Below are positions 53,753 to 60,138 of a DNA stretch of 60,138 bases, one piece after another. Under the pieces are notes generated by a model. The model was not told where the DNA came from, did no database searches, and was given only the letters and a program-made list of their open reading frames with translations. This DNA is from Gracilibacter sp. BRH_c7a (GTDB lineage Bacteria > Bacillota > Desulfitobacteriia > Desulfitobacteriales > Syntrophobotulaceae). The stretch's first letter is position 1; each line of letters opens with the position of its first letter. The position numbers were made by a program, and so were the translations under genes. The DNA lies in contig LOEZ01000030.1 of NCBI GenBank assembly GCA_001516055.1, positions 1-60,138 on the forward strand. Direction: 5' to 3'.

Positions 53753-54163
53753 ATGTTTAAGGAGTTACCGGAAATAATCGGAGAATCTCCCGCTTTAGGT
53801 TTAGTACTCGCAGGTACGGCTGCTGTAGTATTAGCACCATCAGTGAAAAATGTTCTGAGAGGTGTAGCGGTAGGAGCAGCAAAAGGGGTTCTTTCTCTTG
53901 CCGAAGGAGGGGTAGGTCTTACTTCTCGTATGAAGGATAACTGGGAAGATATTGTAGATGAGGCAAAAAATCAGCGGGGTATAATAAATATGGAATCAGG
54001 AGTAGTTGGCGCAGGAGCTGGAGGAGCTATAGGAGCTACAATCGGAAGTAGCATGGCCGGCCCTGTTGGAGCAGCTGTCGGAGGCGGGGTCGGAGGTGTG
54101 GCTGGTGCCAGTATAGCCAGTAATACTGATAAGAAGGAAGATACTAAGGGACTAAGACCTTAA
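53753..54163 (+). CDS. DUF5132-like plus glycine-zipper fusion protein
   Basis: The 136-residue protein has two modules. Residues about 10-75 contain VKNVLRGVAVGAAKGVLSLA and NWEDIVDEAKNQR, closely matching the small protein at 58023-58298 (GNILRPVAVLGVRGVLEIAA, EMEDIVAEAHFER). Residues about 82-125 are a glycine zipper, GAGAGGAIGATIGSSMAG and GAAVGGGVGGVAGASI. That is the same kind of module as in 57467-57766. So one gene here combines what the ATPase operon encodes separately. It is probably membrane-associated. The ATG follows GAAAGGAGCGATATT. Confidence 0.75.
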   Translation: MFKELPEIIGESPALGLVLAGTAAVVLAPSVKNVLRGVAVGAAKGVLSLAEGGVGLTSRMKDNWEDIVDEAKNQRGIINMESGVVGAGAGGAIGATIGSSMAGPVGAAVGGGVGGVAGASIASNTDKKEDTKGLRP

Positions 54164-54284: not shown

Positions 54285-56372
54285 TCAGATTGACATGGAG
54301 TTAAACAAGACAGTGATGATTCCCATATTTGATAAGAGAGCCGCACCAGTTGGGGTAATAATTCCGGTAGTGCCTAAGCCCAATCCCACGATGTTTTGTG
54401 CTAAGGCGATATTCAGGTTTTCTTCCCCGGTCATTATGGCTTTTTGTAGCAACTTAAAGGTGTCTGCAAGCAAGTCCAGGTTTTCTGAGGCGATAACGAT
54501 CTCCGCTGCCTGGGCAGATGAGTTAATTCCGGTACTTCCTATGCAGATCCCCAGATCTGCTTGAGCCATGGCCGGTGTATCATCAAGTCCATCGCCAACC
54601 ATTGCTACCGAGTATCCTTTATCTTTCCATCTTCTGATCAGGTCTGCCTTATCCTGGGCAGATAGATCGTAATGTACCTCGGTTATTCCGATTTTATCTG
54701 CTATGATTTCAGCTGCTTCCTGAGAGTCGCCTGTCACGATAACAATTCTTTCTATGCCCAGAGCCCTCAATTTTTCTATAGTATCCCGTGCTTTAGGTTT
54801 TAATAATTCGGATACTGCCAGAATTCCGATGATTTTCTTATTCCTGGCTACGAAAATAGGAATCTGTCCAAGATGTCTCAGACGGGGAAGCTTAATCATC
54901 ACCTTTCCCAGGGATACATTATTTGCTGCCATAAAACTCTGGTCACCAATAATAATATCATCAGGCATTTCAGAATTATTATTCTGTTTTATGGTGCTTA
55001 CTGCGGATAGACCGATTTGCGCCTCAAGGGCTTTTCTCTGTATAGCTTCAGGCAAGCCTGGTCTGAGTTCGCCATCTGCAACCGATGCCAAACGTAGTAT
55101 ATCTTCAGATTTAATTTTTTTGTCTATAAGAATTATGTCTTCAATCTCAACTGCATTGAGAGAAAGTGTACCGGTTTTGTCCAGAGCGATAGTATTTATT
55201 TTGGCAGCTGCCGAAAAAATGTTTTCATCTCTGATAAATACTTTTTCTCTGGCTGCATTACCTAAAGCCAGACCTGTGGCTGTAGACAAGGCAAGACCGG
55301 CAGCAGAGGGTATTGCTGCCAGAAGCATGGTAATGCTTCTCAGCTTATTGCCGCTAAACAGATAATATATAGCGGTAAAAATGAGTGAAAACAATGATTG
55401 GGAATTGATACGTTGTTGATGTATTGTATTCTTAGCACTGCGGTTCTTATTTCTAAAGCTCTCTATGAGCCGCCCCTGAAAAGTATTAGAACCGACCTTT
55501 TCAACCAGGATGTAGATTTTTCCCGAAACGACCATCGAACCTGCGTATACTTCACTATTTTCCTCTTTGATTAAATGATCGGGTATACCTGTAATACGGC
55601 TTTCATCTACTTCTGCTCTACCGTGAGATACCTTACCGTCAGCCATGATGATTTCACCGTTTTTGACAACAAGTATCCATTGTTTATCGAGTATGGAAAG
55701 AGGAACTAAGGTCTCTTCCTCTCCCACCAGCACCCTGACTCTTGCTGGCAGTCGATGATGTCTCATGATTTCATAATTTGATTTTGTGAGGTTAACAGTA
55801 CCGACTAACCTGGCGAAACTAACCATCAAACTGATAAAAAGTCCTTCAAAACTCTCTTTTAGGATTAAAAGGAAGAGGCTGACGATATCAGCGAATTTTT
55901 CAAAACCTATTACCGGTGGGAATTTCCAATGATCCAGTTTCTGACTAAAAACAGGATATCCGCTAATTATGGATAGGAAAATTGCGAAATCGACAACACC
56001 TTCGGATGGAGAGGTTTTAGATCTGCCGAAGCACTTAATTTTGATATATATAATAAAGAGAGCAGCACAGATAAGAAGAACATGGACAGTAGGCCATTTT
56101 GTAATCAGATTAGGTGCAATCTTGGGCTCTAAACCATGATGCTGTCTTGTTTCCTCGATTAAGATAATAAGGTCGTTATAGTTAAGGATTTTGTCGTCAT
56201 AATGAATGAGAACTGATCCAGATAAACTATTTATCTTAATACTGATAACTCCAGGGGTTTTTCCTATATTAAAGTAAATAGATTGAGCCATGGGGGAATT
56301 CCTACTGAGACCTGGCACCATAACCCTGATTCTCCCGGGAAGCACATGCAGAAATTTATTTTTTTTCATCAT
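54285..56372 (-). CDS. P1B-like P-type ATPase with HMA-like N terminus and non-canonical motifs
   Basis: The 695-residue protein has an N-terminal HMA-like domain (about residues 8-80, HVLPGRIRVMVPGL) without a CxxC motif. Membrane helices follow, then an actuator domain (about 195-300), helices and an HAD ATPase domain. The phosphorylation motif DKTGT is intact at Asp398, as are TGD (547-549) and a GDGLDDTP motif (593-600). However, the membrane CPC motif is IPS (354-356), the actuator TGE is TGI (261-263), and the N-domain HP is absent. It is either a specialised transporter or a regulatory/inactive pump. The ATG follows GGGAAGGATTACCAAG. Confidence 0.85.
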   Translation of the reverse strand: MMKKNKFLHVLPGRIRVMVPGLSRNSPMAQSIYFNIGKTPGVISIKINSLSGSVLIHYDDKILNYNDLIILIEETRQHHGLEPKIAPNLITKWPTVHVLLICAALFIIYIKIKCFGRSKTSPSEGVVDFAIFLSIISGYPVFSQKLDHWKFPPVIGFEKFADIVSLFLLILKESFEGLFISLMVSFARLVGTVNLTKSNYEIMRHHRLPARVRVLVGEEETLVPLSILDKQWILVVKNGEIIMADGKVSHGRAEVDESRITGIPDHLIKEENSEVYAGSMVVSGKIYILVEKVGSNTFQGRLIESFRNKNRSAKNTIHQQRINSQSLFSLIFTAIYYLFSGNKLRSITMLLAAIPSAAGLALSTATGLALGNAAREKVFIRDENIFSAAAKINTIALDKTGTLSLNAVEIEDIILIDKKIKSEDILRLASVADGELRPGLPEAIQRKALEAQIGLSAVSTIKQNNNSEMPDDIIIGDQSFMAANNVSLGKVMIKLPRLRHLGQIPIFVARNKKIIGILAVSELLKPKARDTIEKLRALGIERIVIVTGDSQEAAEIIADKIGITEVHYDLSAQDKADLIRRWKDKGYSVAMVGDGLDDTPAMAQADLGICIGSTGINSSAQAAEIVIASENLDLLADTFKLLQKAIMTGEENLNIALAQNIVGLGLGTTGIITPTGAALLSNMGIITVLFNSMSI

Positions 56373-56522: not shown

Positions 56523-57380
56523 TTATCTTGCACAGATATTCTTCAGTACTTGGTCATCATAACAGTGTTTTTGTTTGATACTTTCAATTTTATCGTTAAG
56601 CCTTTCCTCCACATAAATATCGTGGAGTGAATAGAACGATTTTGCCGCAATAGATTGAAGATCGTTTTGAATATTAAGTTTGAGTGCTAACAAAACCCCT
56701 TCAAGCCTGCGTTCGGTATCAGATATGTGTTCTCGATAGACTTTCGCAGAATCGAACCCAAAGCCTGATAATAAAACAGAACTTAGATTAGAGAACTCGG
56801 CCAAATGATTAAGTATCTTATGTCGTATTATCTGACCAAAGGCAAGTTCCAAAGCGATTTCACTAACAATTCCTGCTCCTTCTGCAACTAACAGATTTCT
56901 TCTTTTCCCAGATAAGCATTCGTCGATAATAGCAAAACTATCTTTAAGCATATATTCTCTGGCTGGTGATACATTTTCAGGAATATGACCAAAACGATCT
57001 TCTAATCTTTCTGTAACTAAATTATTGATGGAAAGAATCAGCTCACTTAATTCAGTATCAGAAATAAAGAACTCATAATCAAAGTGACGGTATTTTTTTA
57101 ATGCTAAAGTTTTAACCAATGGTTTAATTAAACTGAGTTTATCCTTAAAGAAGAAGTCAACCTCAGCTGCTATATTTTGTCGGCATTTTTCTACAGCCTG
57201 AATAGTTTTATATTCTGCAACTTCTTTGTGATGGCAATAGAGATTAATGATATGAGTATATTTGGAATATCTGAAATAATTGTGGCGGAGATTTCTGGAC
57301 TTTGCTCTTCTTTTATAAAAGTCCAGATATATAACTCTATTTAATTTAACCGGGTTTTTAATTCGGTGATATACAGTCAT
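56523..57380 (-). CDS. Hypothetical protein, last gene of the P-type ATPase operon
   Basis: The 285-residue protein starts at ATG 57380, behind TAGGAGAGAAA; a TTG at 57404 is less likely. It is basic and mostly helical by eye, has no clear membrane segment and no family I recognise. Notable stretches are VYHRIKNPVKLNRVIYLDFY, a mid-region RHFDYEFFISDTELSELI and VSEIALELAFGQIIRHKIL. It lies 86 bases after the glycine-zipper gene and is followed by a terminator, so it appears co-transcribed with the ATPase. Function unknown. Confidence 0.7.
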   Translation of the reverse strand: MTVYHRIKNPVKLNRVIYLDFYKRRAKSRNLRHNYFRYSKYTHIINLYCHHKEVAEYKTIQAVEKCRQNIAAEVDFFFKDKLSLIKPLVKTLALKKYRHFDYEFFISDTELSELILSINNLVTERLEDRFGHIPENVSPAREYMLKDSFAIIDECLSGKRRNLLVAEGAGIVSEIALELAFGQIIRHKILNHLAEFSNLSSVLLSGFGFDSAKVYREHISDTERRLEGVLLALKLNIQNDLQSIAAKSFYSLHDIYVEERLNDKIESIKQKHCYDDQVLKNICAR

Positions 57381-57466
57381 TTTCTCTCCTAATTCCTTCT
57401 TCAATATTACGATATTATTATAAAAGAAAAGTATTAGGAGAGGTTTACTGTTATGTTAATTTTATG

Positions 57467-57766
57467 TTAATTTTTTAGGAATAATGAATTACCGACTTCC
57501 AAGCCGATAGAGTTTCCCAGACGGCTGCCAACTATAGCACCCAGGATTGAACCTATCGCAGTTCCGATTCCTGGCAAGACGGCAGAACCTACGCCGGCAC
57601 CATATTCTAATCCTGTCATTAACCCTAAGGCACTGGTTATATTTTTGGTTGTTCTGGCTGCTAGACCATTATCTGAGATACTCCCAGCGGCATAGGTTTT
57701 AATATCATGTACTTGTGACAATCCTCCGGATATCAAACCGGCAAATAATTGACCTCTGCTGAACAT
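57467..57766 (-). CDS. Small glycine-zipper membrane protein
   Basis: The 99-residue protein has a C-terminal glycine zipper (GVGSAVLPGIGTAIGSILGA, IVGSRLGNSIGLEVG). This suggests helix packing or oligomerisation in a membrane. The N terminus (RGQLFAGLISGGLSQVHDI) is also mildly hydrophobic. The ATG follows CAGGGAGTGATACC. The same zipper module is fused to a DUF5132-like domain in 53753-54163. It is the third gene after the ATPase in the operon. Confidence 0.7.
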   Translation of the reverse strand: MFSRGQLFAGLISGGLSQVHDIKTYAAGSISDNGLAARTTKNITSALGLMTGLEYGAGVGSAVLPGIGTAIGSILGAIVGSRLGNSIGLEVGNSLFLKN

Positions 57767-57802: not shown

Positions 57803-58033
57803 TCAATTGAAGATTCGGCGAATGTTTATCCATTTAAAGAAATTGATCCCTTTTTCTTTACCCTTTATGCGTACGTAGTATAAGAACTGGCTGATGAATG
57901 TTTCCCATCTTTGACCGATTTGTTGAGCAGAAACTTCGTTGGATAAAACACTTTCGATGCTTTGATCGATAGCTTTTTCTATGTGTATCAGAGCCTCTTG
58001 AAAATGGAAATCAAGGGATTTTTTATTCTCCAC
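57803..58033 (-). CDS. Small hypothetical protein in the P-type ATPase operon
   Basis: I tentatively start at GTG 58033 (76 residues), which overlaps the upstream stop by 11 bases and can be translationally coupled. An ATG at 58075 would overlap by 53 bases and lacks a ribosome binding site. The protein is soluble and helical (EALIHIEKAIDQSIESVLSN, QIGQRWETFISQFLYYVR) with a basic C terminus. No family recognised. Confidence 0.5.
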   Translation of the reverse strand: MENKKSLDFHFQEALIHIEKAIDQSIESVLSNEVSAQQIGQRWETFISQFLYYVRIKGKEKGINFFKWINIRRIFN

Positions 58034-58298
58034 AGGTCGTTTGTTCACTCCTTGTACTATTACTTTCGATTTCATCGTCCATCTTTTTTCTCAGACGTTC
58101 AAAATGAGCTTCCGCAACAATGTCCTCCATTTCTTCTCTAGCCAATTGCAGGGCAGTTTTAGTCAGAGCTGCAATTTCCAGAACACCTCGGACACCCAGG
58201 ACTGCCACGGGACGAAGAATATTTCCTAGTGCAGGAGGAAGGATAGAGGGTCTTAAAGCAGGATCCCGGTTTTCATTTGATTTTTGATCTTCAATCAC
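58023..58298 (-). CDS. DUF5132-like small protein adjacent to the P-type ATPase
   Basis: The 91-residue protein starts at GTG 58298, 15 bases after the ATPase stop and 10 after AGAGGAG. Residues about 24-70 (GNILRPVAVLGVRGVLEIAA, then EMEDIVAEAHFER) match the first module of the fusion protein at 53753-54163. A moderately hydrophobic stretch is followed by an acidic EDIV motif and a charged tail ending in CGE. In layout it recalls small membrane partners of mycobacterial P-type pumps (PacL with CtpC), but I see no sequence match to them. Confidence 0.72.
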   Translation of the reverse strand: MIEDQKSNENRDPALRPSILPPALGNILRPVAVLGVRGVLEIAALTKTALQLAREEMEDIVAEAHFERLRKKMDDEIESNSTRSEQTTCGE

Positions 58299-58313: not shown

Positions 58314-60138
58314 CTAGGAGGCTGTTCCATATAGAGGTAAGGATTTTGGACCTGGTACATAAGAATGTTCATTAACTCTGGTAAACAGAGGTACAAACAG
58401 TTTTGATATTGCAGAAACTGAAGCGGTGGTCAAGAAAATAGACAGCCAATACTTGAAATTTATTGGGGCTGTATGGAAGAAGCGGGCAAAGGGTGGGACA
58501 TAGATCGCAGCTAACAGGGCGAGGAAAGAGAATCCGATACCACCTATAAGATATCTGTCTTGAAGTGAATGAACAATTCCTTCCTGTGACCCTTCTTTTC
58601 TCCAGGATAGAGTCTGCACAAACTGCCCAACAACTAAAGAGACAAAAGCTGCTGTTTGGGCTACAGCAAGGGGTGCTCCACTGGAAAGTGCTACTCCGAA
58701 GATTCCAAGGGAAGTGGAGGCTAGGATAGATCCACGTGTAATCACCTTGCTATAGAGTTCACGGTCGACCACATCTTTGGTCAGAGAAGTTTGAGATTCA
58801 TTATTCTGGTTCCCTGGATTAACCGCCAGAATCATGGCAGGGATGGCATCGGTTAACAGATTCATTAGCAGAATCTGAATGGGAACCAGAGGCATTGGAA
58901 GTCCGGCGAGTACTGCTGTCGCAGTAACCATGATCTCTGCCAGATTGCCTGTAAGCAGACAACCAATAGCTTTCCTTATATTGCCAATAATTATGCGTCC
59001 TTGTGTGATACCTTCCAAGATAGAACCGAAATGGTCTTTCTTAAGGACCATATCGGCGGCAGCTTTTGTGACTTCCGTACCTGTCCCCATCGAAATGCCT
59101 ATGTTAGCCTGTTTGATTGCAGGAGTATCATTTACCCCGTCGCCAGTCATGGCAACGATTTGACCGTGGGCCTGGAAAGCTTTGACGATTCTGAGTTTAT
59201 GCTCCGGTGTCACCCTGGCGAAAATGTTTATTTCTTCTACCAGTTCAGCCAGTTCCTGATCTGTTAAGCGATCCAATTCTTGTCCTGTCATTACTTTGGA
59301 ATTTCCATTACTGATTCCAAGCTCTTTTGCTATGGAGATCGCTGTTACAGGATGGTCACCGGTAATCATCACCGGTTTAACACCGAGTGCATAAGCTTCT
59401 GTGATACTGGCTTGGATATCGGGTTTTGGTGGATCCATCATTCCGGCCAAACCAACATATATCATTTCTTTTGGAATCTGTCCGGGGTTTTCATTAACCC
59501 ATTCGATAGGTGCATAAGCAAATCCTAAAACACGAAGGGCTTCGCGTGCATATGATATATTTTGTTCGAAGATCTTATCTTTCATCTTCGGGGTCAAAGG
59601 TAAGACTTCTCCCTTTTGCTGATAAAACTTGCAGTGTTCCAAGACCACCTCAACAGATCCTTTGCAAAACACATAGCAATCTTTATCTTCCTTTGTATCC
59701 CGACAGACAACACTCATACTTCCTGAGTTGGAGTCGAAAGGTACTTCATGGACTCGGTGCCAGTGTTTGGCTTGATCCTGTAATGTACCCAGTTTAGCAG
59801 CTAAAGTCAAAAGTGCGCCTTCGGTAGGGTCACCTATAACATGCCATTGATCTTCTTTTTTCTCCAATTTACTGTTGTTACAAAGTAAACTGATGCGGGC
59901 TATATATTCAAGTTCAGGGTTAGAATCTTTGAGTGGAGAATCATGATCAGCTATATTCACACACTCAATGGAACCAACCGGTTCATAGCCACTGCCTGAG
60001 ACTTCCCATAAGCCACCCATTGTTGCTACTGTTTTGACGGTCATTTCATTTTTGGTCAGCGTCCCGGTTTTATCGGTACAGATAACAGTGGCTCTACCTA
60101 AGGTCTCTAAAGCCGATAACTTCCTGATGAGGGCATTT
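58314..60138 (-). CDS. P2-type cation-transporting ATPase (partial, N terminus beyond the window)
   Basis: The frame stays open to the window edge. The first visible residues read NALIRKLSALETLGRATVIC followed directly by DKTGTLTKNEMTV, so an internal ATG at 60044 is not the start. The visible 607 residues include the N domain (HVIGDPTEGALL, CKGSVEVVLEHC), PVMITGDHPVTAISIAKELG and TGDGVNDTPAIKQANIGISMG. M5-M10 contain NLLTDAIPAMILAVNPG, where Asn and Asp match cation ligands of the P2A Ca2+ pumps. It is probably a Ca2+ or Mn2+ exporter. It heads a five-gene operon with small membrane proteins. Confidence 0.9.
   Translation of the reverse strand, partial: NALIRKLSALETLGRATVICTDKTGTLTKNEMTVKTVATMGGLWEVSGSGYEPVGSIECVNIADHDSPLKDSNPELEYIARISLLCNNSKLEKKEDQWHVIGDPTEGALLTLAAKLGTLQDQAKHWHRVHEVPFDSNSGSMSVVCRDTKEDKDCYVFCKGSVEVVLEHCKFYQQKGEVLPLTPKMKDKIFEQNISYAREALRVLGFAYAPIEWVNENPGQIPKEMIYVGLAGMMDPPKPDIQASITEAYALGVKPVMITGDHPVTAISIAKELGISNGNSKVMTGQELDRLTDQELAELVEEINIFARVTPEHKLRIVKAFQAHGQIVAMTGDGVNDTPAIKQANIGISMGTGTEVTKAAADMVLKKDHFGSILEGITQGRIIIGNIRKAIGCLLTGNLAEIMVTATAVLAGLPMPLVPIQILLMNLLTDAIPAMILAVNPGNQNNESQTSLTKDVVDRELYSKVITRGSILASTSLGIFGVALSSGAPLAVAQTAAFVSLVVGQFVQTLSWRKEGSQEGIVHSLQDRYLIGGIGFSFLALLAAIYVPPFARFFHTAPINFKYWLSIFLTTASVSAISKLFVPLFTRVNEHSYVPGPKSLPLYGTAS

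Follow-up and report, generated by a model that had tools for sequence, protein, structure and literature searches.

A P1B-type pseudo-ATPase under purifying selection in its clade: probable non-catalytic partner of a co-encoded P2-type cation ATPase

Is a P-type ATPase that has lost most of its catalytic motifs still a pump, a pump in decay, or a component of something else? This question is raised by a gene of Gracilibacter sp. BRH_c7a on contig LOEZ01000030.1, whose positions 1 to 60,138 (60,138 nucleotides, forward strand) are called the window here. A preliminary description based on the letters of the window had recorded an open frame with every domain present, intact DKTGT and TGD motifs, substitutions in the TGE, CPC and GDGxND motifs, a missing HP dipeptide and an HMA-like domain without CxxC. 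We set the motif columns by aligning the protein with canonical P1B ATPases encoded in its own genome and in related ones. The alignment placed each of the losses (TGI, IPS, the missing HP and GDGLDD) in its motif column, located DKTGT and TGD as described and found no CPC or TGE at another place in the protein. The reading frame comprises 695 codons with an ATG start, and three Pfam domains, HMA_2 (residues 9-70), E1-E2_ATPase and HAD Hydrolase, scored above the gathering score. The gene and its motifs, with the nucleotide positions confirmed for each motif, are as follows.

54285 to 56372, minus strand: P1B-like pseudo-ATPase of 695 amino acids with HMA_2, A, P and N domains and predicted P-type membrane helices (open reading frame, Pfam, AlphaFold2, Foldseek).
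56163 to 56348, minus strand: HMA_2 domain with a PGRIR motif and no cysteine (PF19991 match; sequence).
55584 to 55592, minus strand: TGE of the A domain changed to TGI, T261-I263 (alignment with canonical P1B ATPases).
55305 to 55313, minus strand: CPC of M4 changed to IPS, residues 354-356 (alignment with canonical P1B ATPases).
55167 to 55181, minus strand: intact DKTGT, residues 398-402 (alignment with canonical P1B ATPases).
55056 to 55061, minus strand: HP of the N domain changed to PG, residues 438-439 (alignment with canonical P1B ATPases).
54726 to 54734, minus strand: intact TGD, residues 547-549 (alignment with canonical P1B ATPases).
54579 to 54596, minus strand: GDGxND changed to GDGLDD, residues 593-598, the N to D change being common to the whole clade described below (alignment).

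Further losses were detected in the window copy. In the N domain, GxG is missing and GN has become GD, which makes ATP binding by this protein doubtful, and the E preceding HP is D. Cysteine occurs only three times (residues 102, 114 and 610) and neither in HMA_2 nor in M4, so that HMA_2 is devoid of cysteine altogether, beyond the missing CxxC. Since its M4 metal route contains no cysteine, the protein is unlikely to transport soft metals.

By descent the protein is a P1B-type ATPase, as judged from its fold, its topology, the E1-E2 and HAD domains and its best P-ATPase model match. The best NCBIfam model was TIGR01525, 'heavy metal translocating P-type ATPase', with 303 bits against a cut-off of 346. 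AlphaFold2 modelled a P-type ATPase fold in full (mean pLDDT 75, pTM 0.62), with its weakest part at residues 455-470 in the N domain, and the first Foldseek matches of this model were the P1B structures of ATP7B, CopA and ZntA. Of the features that mark a functional P1B ATPase, DKTGT is present, whereas a CPC or equivalent M4 thiol motif, TGE, HP with the nucleotide pocket and GDGxND are missing. P1B6-like ATPases combine an 'HN' in M6 with a small transmembrane partner; here M6 reads SN, and DUF5132-like partners are present. The protein has the marks of a pseudoenzyme, in which catalytic motifs are gone while fold and purifying selection, the latter measured on orthologues, are kept. A recent foreign origin of the gene was set aside, as its GC content of 0.41 shows no clear anomaly against 0.38 for the window.

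Desulfosporosinus, Acididesulfobacillus and Peptococcaceae CEB3 carry full-length orthologues with 34-37% identity, and a fourth genus has a partial copy. Among 82 genomes of the class, searched at E 1e-55, full or near full-length relatives occurred in five from Desulfosporosinus and in two others, and the partial copy came from another genus. The sole match of this search in the family of the window organism was a 26% match to another P1B ATPase, and no orthologue was present in this family at E 1e-60. A single-sequence scan of genome contigs recovered no orthologue, whereas an alignment-based scan did, naming as carriers Desulfosporosinus (sp. BG, SbF1 and MAGs), Peptococcaceae bacterium CEB3 and Acididesulfobacillus acetoxydans. 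Plasmids contained distant P1B relatives only (26% identity) and no fused giant, and phages gave no match to the pseudo-ATPase. A haloarchaeal plasmid with nearby P1B and P2 genes was dropped, because its annotation points to separate pumps with universal stress proteins.

The eight standalone copies were monophyletic in two trees (support 98/96 and 100/99). The Glu of TGE, the CPC motif and the Asn of GDGxND are missing in all orthologues whose columns are covered; the Asn position is occupied by Asp across the whole clade, including the partial copy, while the position of the lost Glu holds I, K or L. DKTGT, TGD and HP are all missing from the Desulfosporosinus orthologues, which read SGI/SGK/SGL, SPA/SPS, NP, TRD/TKD and DKIPS/DKVPS/DNIPS. 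The CEB3 and Acididesulfobacillus copies read TGI, APA and TRD, but have retained DKTGT, HP and, in the N domain, GxG and GN. Invariant in the clade are the phosphorylation Asp (D398), the P-domain Lys and the Pro of M4, and HMA_2 is conserved in every copy with a complete N terminus.

The pattern bears on an alternative in which the protein can be phosphorylated but not dephosphorylated: D398 would take its phosphate from ATP, and the resulting E2P-like state would make the protein a slow switch, timer or sensor and not a pump. TGE serves in dephosphorylation (PMC10973460, PMC11977196), and P-type ATPases are said to carry it without exception (PMC10973460); the loss of its Glu in the whole clade and the intact DKTGT and TGD of the window copy are in line with such a switch. 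The nucleotide site of the same copy is eroded, however, and its GDGxND is changed. Moreover, phosphorylation cannot be the shared function of the clade, because the Desulfosporosinus copies are without DKTGT. We consider a phosphorylated switch unlikely for the window protein. The earlier suggestion that phosphorylation may still occur retains its basis in the two intact motifs but has become doubtful in view of the nucleotide site. For a sensor role, which the preliminary description also raised, the analysis yielded evidence in neither direction; the HMA_2 domain is free of cysteine. Some ATP chemistry could persist in the copies which keep motifs, namely DKTGT and TGD in the window and DKTGT, HP, GxG and GN in CEB3 and Acididesulfobacillus.

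Selection was measured on the orthologues by the Nei-Gojobori method, the window copy being too distant for dS. All ten Desulfosporosinus pairs gave dN/dS values of 0.11-0.17, and the CEB3/Acididesulfobacillus pair gave 0.20. In two Desulfosporosinus pairs split by domain, M3-M4, the P domain and M5-M6 were most constrained (0.08-0.14); constraint was weakest in the HMA domain, the early helices and the N domain (0.19-0.33). The features common to the clade can include the membrane core and the P domain, its most constrained parts. In the same clusters, the active half of the neighbouring P2 pump (see below) showed 0.065-0.11 and its fused dead half 0.17-0.28. The pseudo-ATPases fall between the two and are therefore under selection, at about half the constraint of the pump.

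These values weigh against a metal-pump relic on its way to a pseudogene. Motif loss is progressive across the clade, the window copy lies on a long branch (1.3-1.4) and it is the single known copy in the genus sample, all of which would suit a relic. The 695-codon frame is intact, however, full-length orthologues exist in three other genera, and dN/dS stays at 0.11-0.20 with the P domain and the membrane core most constrained, so that we regard decay as improbable. The argument of the preliminary description against simple decay is thereby borne out: its motif substitutions are common to a supported clade under purifying selection rather than confined to one strain with relaxed selection.

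A working pump with unusual chemistry, in which a different residue does the work of the TGE Glu and a cysteine-free site carries a hard or borderline cation, is very improbable. In its favour, no domain is missing, neither D398 nor the P-domain Lys varies within the clade, and active P1B subclasses with non-CPC metal motifs exist. On the other hand, several catalytic sites have changed together, DKTGT is missing in part of the clade, and the residue in place of the lost Glu changes freely, as expected if there is no replacement.

The pseudo-ATPase belongs to a same-strand run of genes, the first of which encodes a P2-type cation ATPase, and faces a convergent gene.

58314 to 60137, minus strand: P2-type cation ATPase, C-terminal 607 amino acids only, cut by the contig end, with intact DKTGT, TGD and GDGVND (open reading frame, Pfam).
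58023 to 58298, minus strand: small DUF5132/PacL-like protein (PF17195, 4.7e-4, below cut-off), conserved in related loci.
57803 to 58075, minus strand: fam4, a small helical protein without Pfam family, conserved in related loci.
57467 to 57766, minus strand: small glycine-zipper protein, fam2 (PF13488, 6e-5, below cut-off), conserved in pseudo-ATPase loci.
56523 to 57404, minus strand: fam3, about 290 amino acids, without Pfam family, conserved in related loci.
53753 to 54163, plus strand: convergent DUF5132/PacL-like protein with a glycine zipper (PF13488, 3.7e-8), found in the same place beside several orthologues.

This order of P2 pump, DUF5132-like protein, fam4, glycine-zipper protein, fam3 and pseudo-ATPase, with the convergent DUF5132-like gene, recurs with gains and losses in the related loci. 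By their layout and weak Pfam scores the small proteins of the window resemble PacL. In other families, canonical HMA_2 P1B ATPases likewise have DUF5132-like, fam3 and fam4 proteins as neighbours.

Two side observations concern these small proteins. The families fam3 and fam4, which have no Pfam entries, turn up repeatedly next to HMA_2 P-ATPases, in several families of Bacillota. Furthermore, some proteins of the DUF5132-like family near HMA_2 loci have a ferritin-like look (L168:8907-9443, L136:12800-13513 and L154:1729-2364); the first has weak Pfam Rubrerythrin and Ferritin matches beside DUF5132, and the other two were recognized by eye. Such neighbours are a possible hint at iron handling.

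The preliminary description needs correction in one respect, as the P2 ATPase of the window is incomplete and runs off the contig end. Its missing N-terminal half was sought in the whole genome assembly and not found there, so that a fusion in this organism is no more than putative. Orthologues of the P2 pump are 66% identical to it over the visible part. In the relatives, the gene encodes 1570-1690 amino acids consisting of an HMA_2 domain, a degenerate P1B half without A domain and then an intact P2 ATPase. In the fused P1B half CPC is changed to NPR or SPR and DKTGT to EDTHL or TDSAL. This half matches P1B structures in the PDB, and a profile comparison (hhalign) with the standalone clade gave 99.8% probability (E 4e-29, 561 columns).

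The pseudo-ATPase and this specific P2 pump, defined by 55% or more identity, occur in the identical 9 of the 82 genomes, the others having ordinary P2 pumps only (about 36-43%). The chance of drawing the same set is 1/C(82,9)=3.4e-12, a value left uncorrected for relatedness and linkage, and the co-occurrence follows in part from location in a single cluster. The two genes lie on separate short contigs in genome G063 and in the fragmented assemblies G045 and G069; clustering was seen directly in the others.

Because the pseudo-ATPase is selected in other genera beside a working ion pump, we propose that it is the partner of the P2 pump. In this proposal, to which we assign a probability of roughly 0.6, it is a non-catalytic, P1B-derived subunit within a membrane complex in which the co-encoded P2-type cation ATPase does the pumping. 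The P-type fold (HMA_2, A and P domains, eroded N domain and membrane core) would have been kept while the pumping chemistry was lost. The protein might bind the P2 pump or the fused dead half of that pump and might stabilise, localise or gate it, and the DUF5132/glycine-zipper (PacL-like) small proteins may organise the complex. A partnership with the P2 ATPase had already been suggested, in the form of a heterodimer. The partnership has gained from the exact co-occurrence in the 82 genomes and from recurrent pairing in other families, while the heterodimer itself is putative.

It is hardly probable, in comparison, that the dead ATPase is kept only as a metal-handling or scaffolding surface formed by HMA_2 and the P domain and unrelated to the P2 transport cycle. 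Conservation of HMA_2 in the copies with complete N termini and the scaffold-like neighbours would fit such a surface. The M3-M6 helices are among the most constrained parts, suggesting a membrane role, and co-occurrence with one specific pump is strict, both of which favour a subunit of the P2 pump complex over a mere surface.

Pairings of a complete HMA_2-type pump with a P1B-like partner, usually without the TGE Glu, were found as a theme in other Bacillota loci. These loci came from homology searches rather than from an unbiased survey, so they give a lead but no frequency. The tree did not fix the branching order among the P2-associated P1B-like groups, so that no number of independent TGE losses follows from them. 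In G224 a fused pump (L153:6979-11694) has a P1B half with TGS and SPS which keeps DKTGT, HP, TGD and GDGIND, and adjoins a standalone P1B-like protein with TGQ and TPS; this fused P1B and P2 ATPase may show what a fused giant looks like when degeneration has gone less far. A protein with RGK stands beside an HMA_2-P2 pump in G164, and the same reading occurs in G198 and G433. In G026, a P1B-like protein of 590 amino acids (L160:14626-16398) with RGQ and without DKTGT or N domain adjoins two HMA_2-P2 pumps. A TGQ/CPM protein adjoins a canonical P1B ATPase in G165 and G230, as does a fused pump with a dead half in G278 and G197. G410 is an exception, in which the P1B-like partner of the HMA_2-P2 pump keeps TGE and only CPC is changed, to SPR. 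No P1B-like neighbour was present in the stretch read around the HMA_2-P2 pumps of G182 and G292, and in the 14-20 kb read at six loci where the HMA_2 pump is canonical (CPC/TGE), no second full-size HMA_2 P-ATPase was present.

Some of these relatives have lost the TGE Glu with DKTGT, HP, TGD and GDGxND intact, namely those of G224 (TGQ, TGS), G164 (RGK) and G165/G230 (TGQ). For the TGQ, TGS and RGK proteins with an otherwise intact site a protein locked in E2P is a serious rival to a non-catalytic subunit, less so for the window copy. We offer a wider statement only tentatively and at somewhat below even odds: HMA_2-type P-ATPases of Bacillota may often be unlike pairs of a complete pump (P1B or P2) and a dead or E2P-locked P1B-like partner, separate or fused. 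If true, pseudo-P-type ATPases would be a recurrent class of regulatory subunits, and this would explain why giant CtpI/CtpH-like ATPases have a dead N-terminal half.

Two side observations may be added. At L171:6593-8752 and L170:1258-3420, a P1B-like protein with TGQ and CPM adjoins a canonical CPC/TGE HMA_2 pump, with a dN/dS of 0.25, compared with 0.09 for the pump. Another variant of the metal motif, DYSCG instead of ACPCA with TGE intact, was seen in Desulfosporosinus P1B ATPases of the HMA_2 type at L022, L024 and L030.

A selected clade that lacks TGE, CPC and in part DKTGT, and always occurs with one pump, provides a testable case for dead P-type ATPase partners, which would parallel the pseudokinases among kinases. 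Fused dead type I halves are already known in outline. A literature search found neither a conserved free-standing family without TGE nor a selected free-standing dead P1B clade tied to one pump; its coverage was incomplete, which makes this absence weak evidence.

A close parallel to the co-encoded P2 pump of the orthologues is FUPA24, the CtpI/CtpH type of mycobacteria, which has the same layout; the likeness is one of layout. According to Chan et al. 2010, FUPA24 is reportedly a fusion of a type I with a type II ATPase, of which only the latter is functional. In CtpI and CtpH the N-terminal segment is very large, and the functional motifs are found in the type II ATPase at the C terminus (PMC3573892); CtpI/CtpH-like giants are listed as uncharacterised (PMC10654040). 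The present finding gives a concrete idea for this large N-terminal half. The pseudo-ATPase itself is separate and so not of the FUPA24 type; in contrast to FUPA24, it is an unfused protein with its A domain kept, standing beside a fused one in the relatives.

With P1B6 and P1B6-like ATPases, which have DUF6110 or PacL (DUF1490) partners as in CtpC, the protein shares the HMA_2-type N terminus with GRxR and the small transmembrane neighbours. Its nearest canonical relatives carry CPC and the M6 HN as in P1B6-like ATPases (PMC9374683), whereas the window protein is without CPC, TGE, HP and M6 HN. PacL proteins are small transmembrane scaffolds beside P1B6-like ATPases and assemble mycobacterial P-ATPase platforms; in Firmicutes, P1B6 ATPases occur together with proteins of the related DUF6110 type (PMC9374683, PMC13043812). 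A similar pairing of a small membrane protein with a P-ATPase exists in the ferrosome system FezB/FezA of C. difficile and Desulfovibrio, in which ferrosomes require both the membrane protein FezA and the transporter FezB (PMC12574912). Finally, the PacL effluxosomes of M. tuberculosis contain several P-ATPases held by small transmembrane proteins (PMC13043812), an arrangement to which the gene neighbourhood in the window may correspond. In the available part of that source the ATPases are treated as active exporters, whereas here one partner has lost its catalytic residues.
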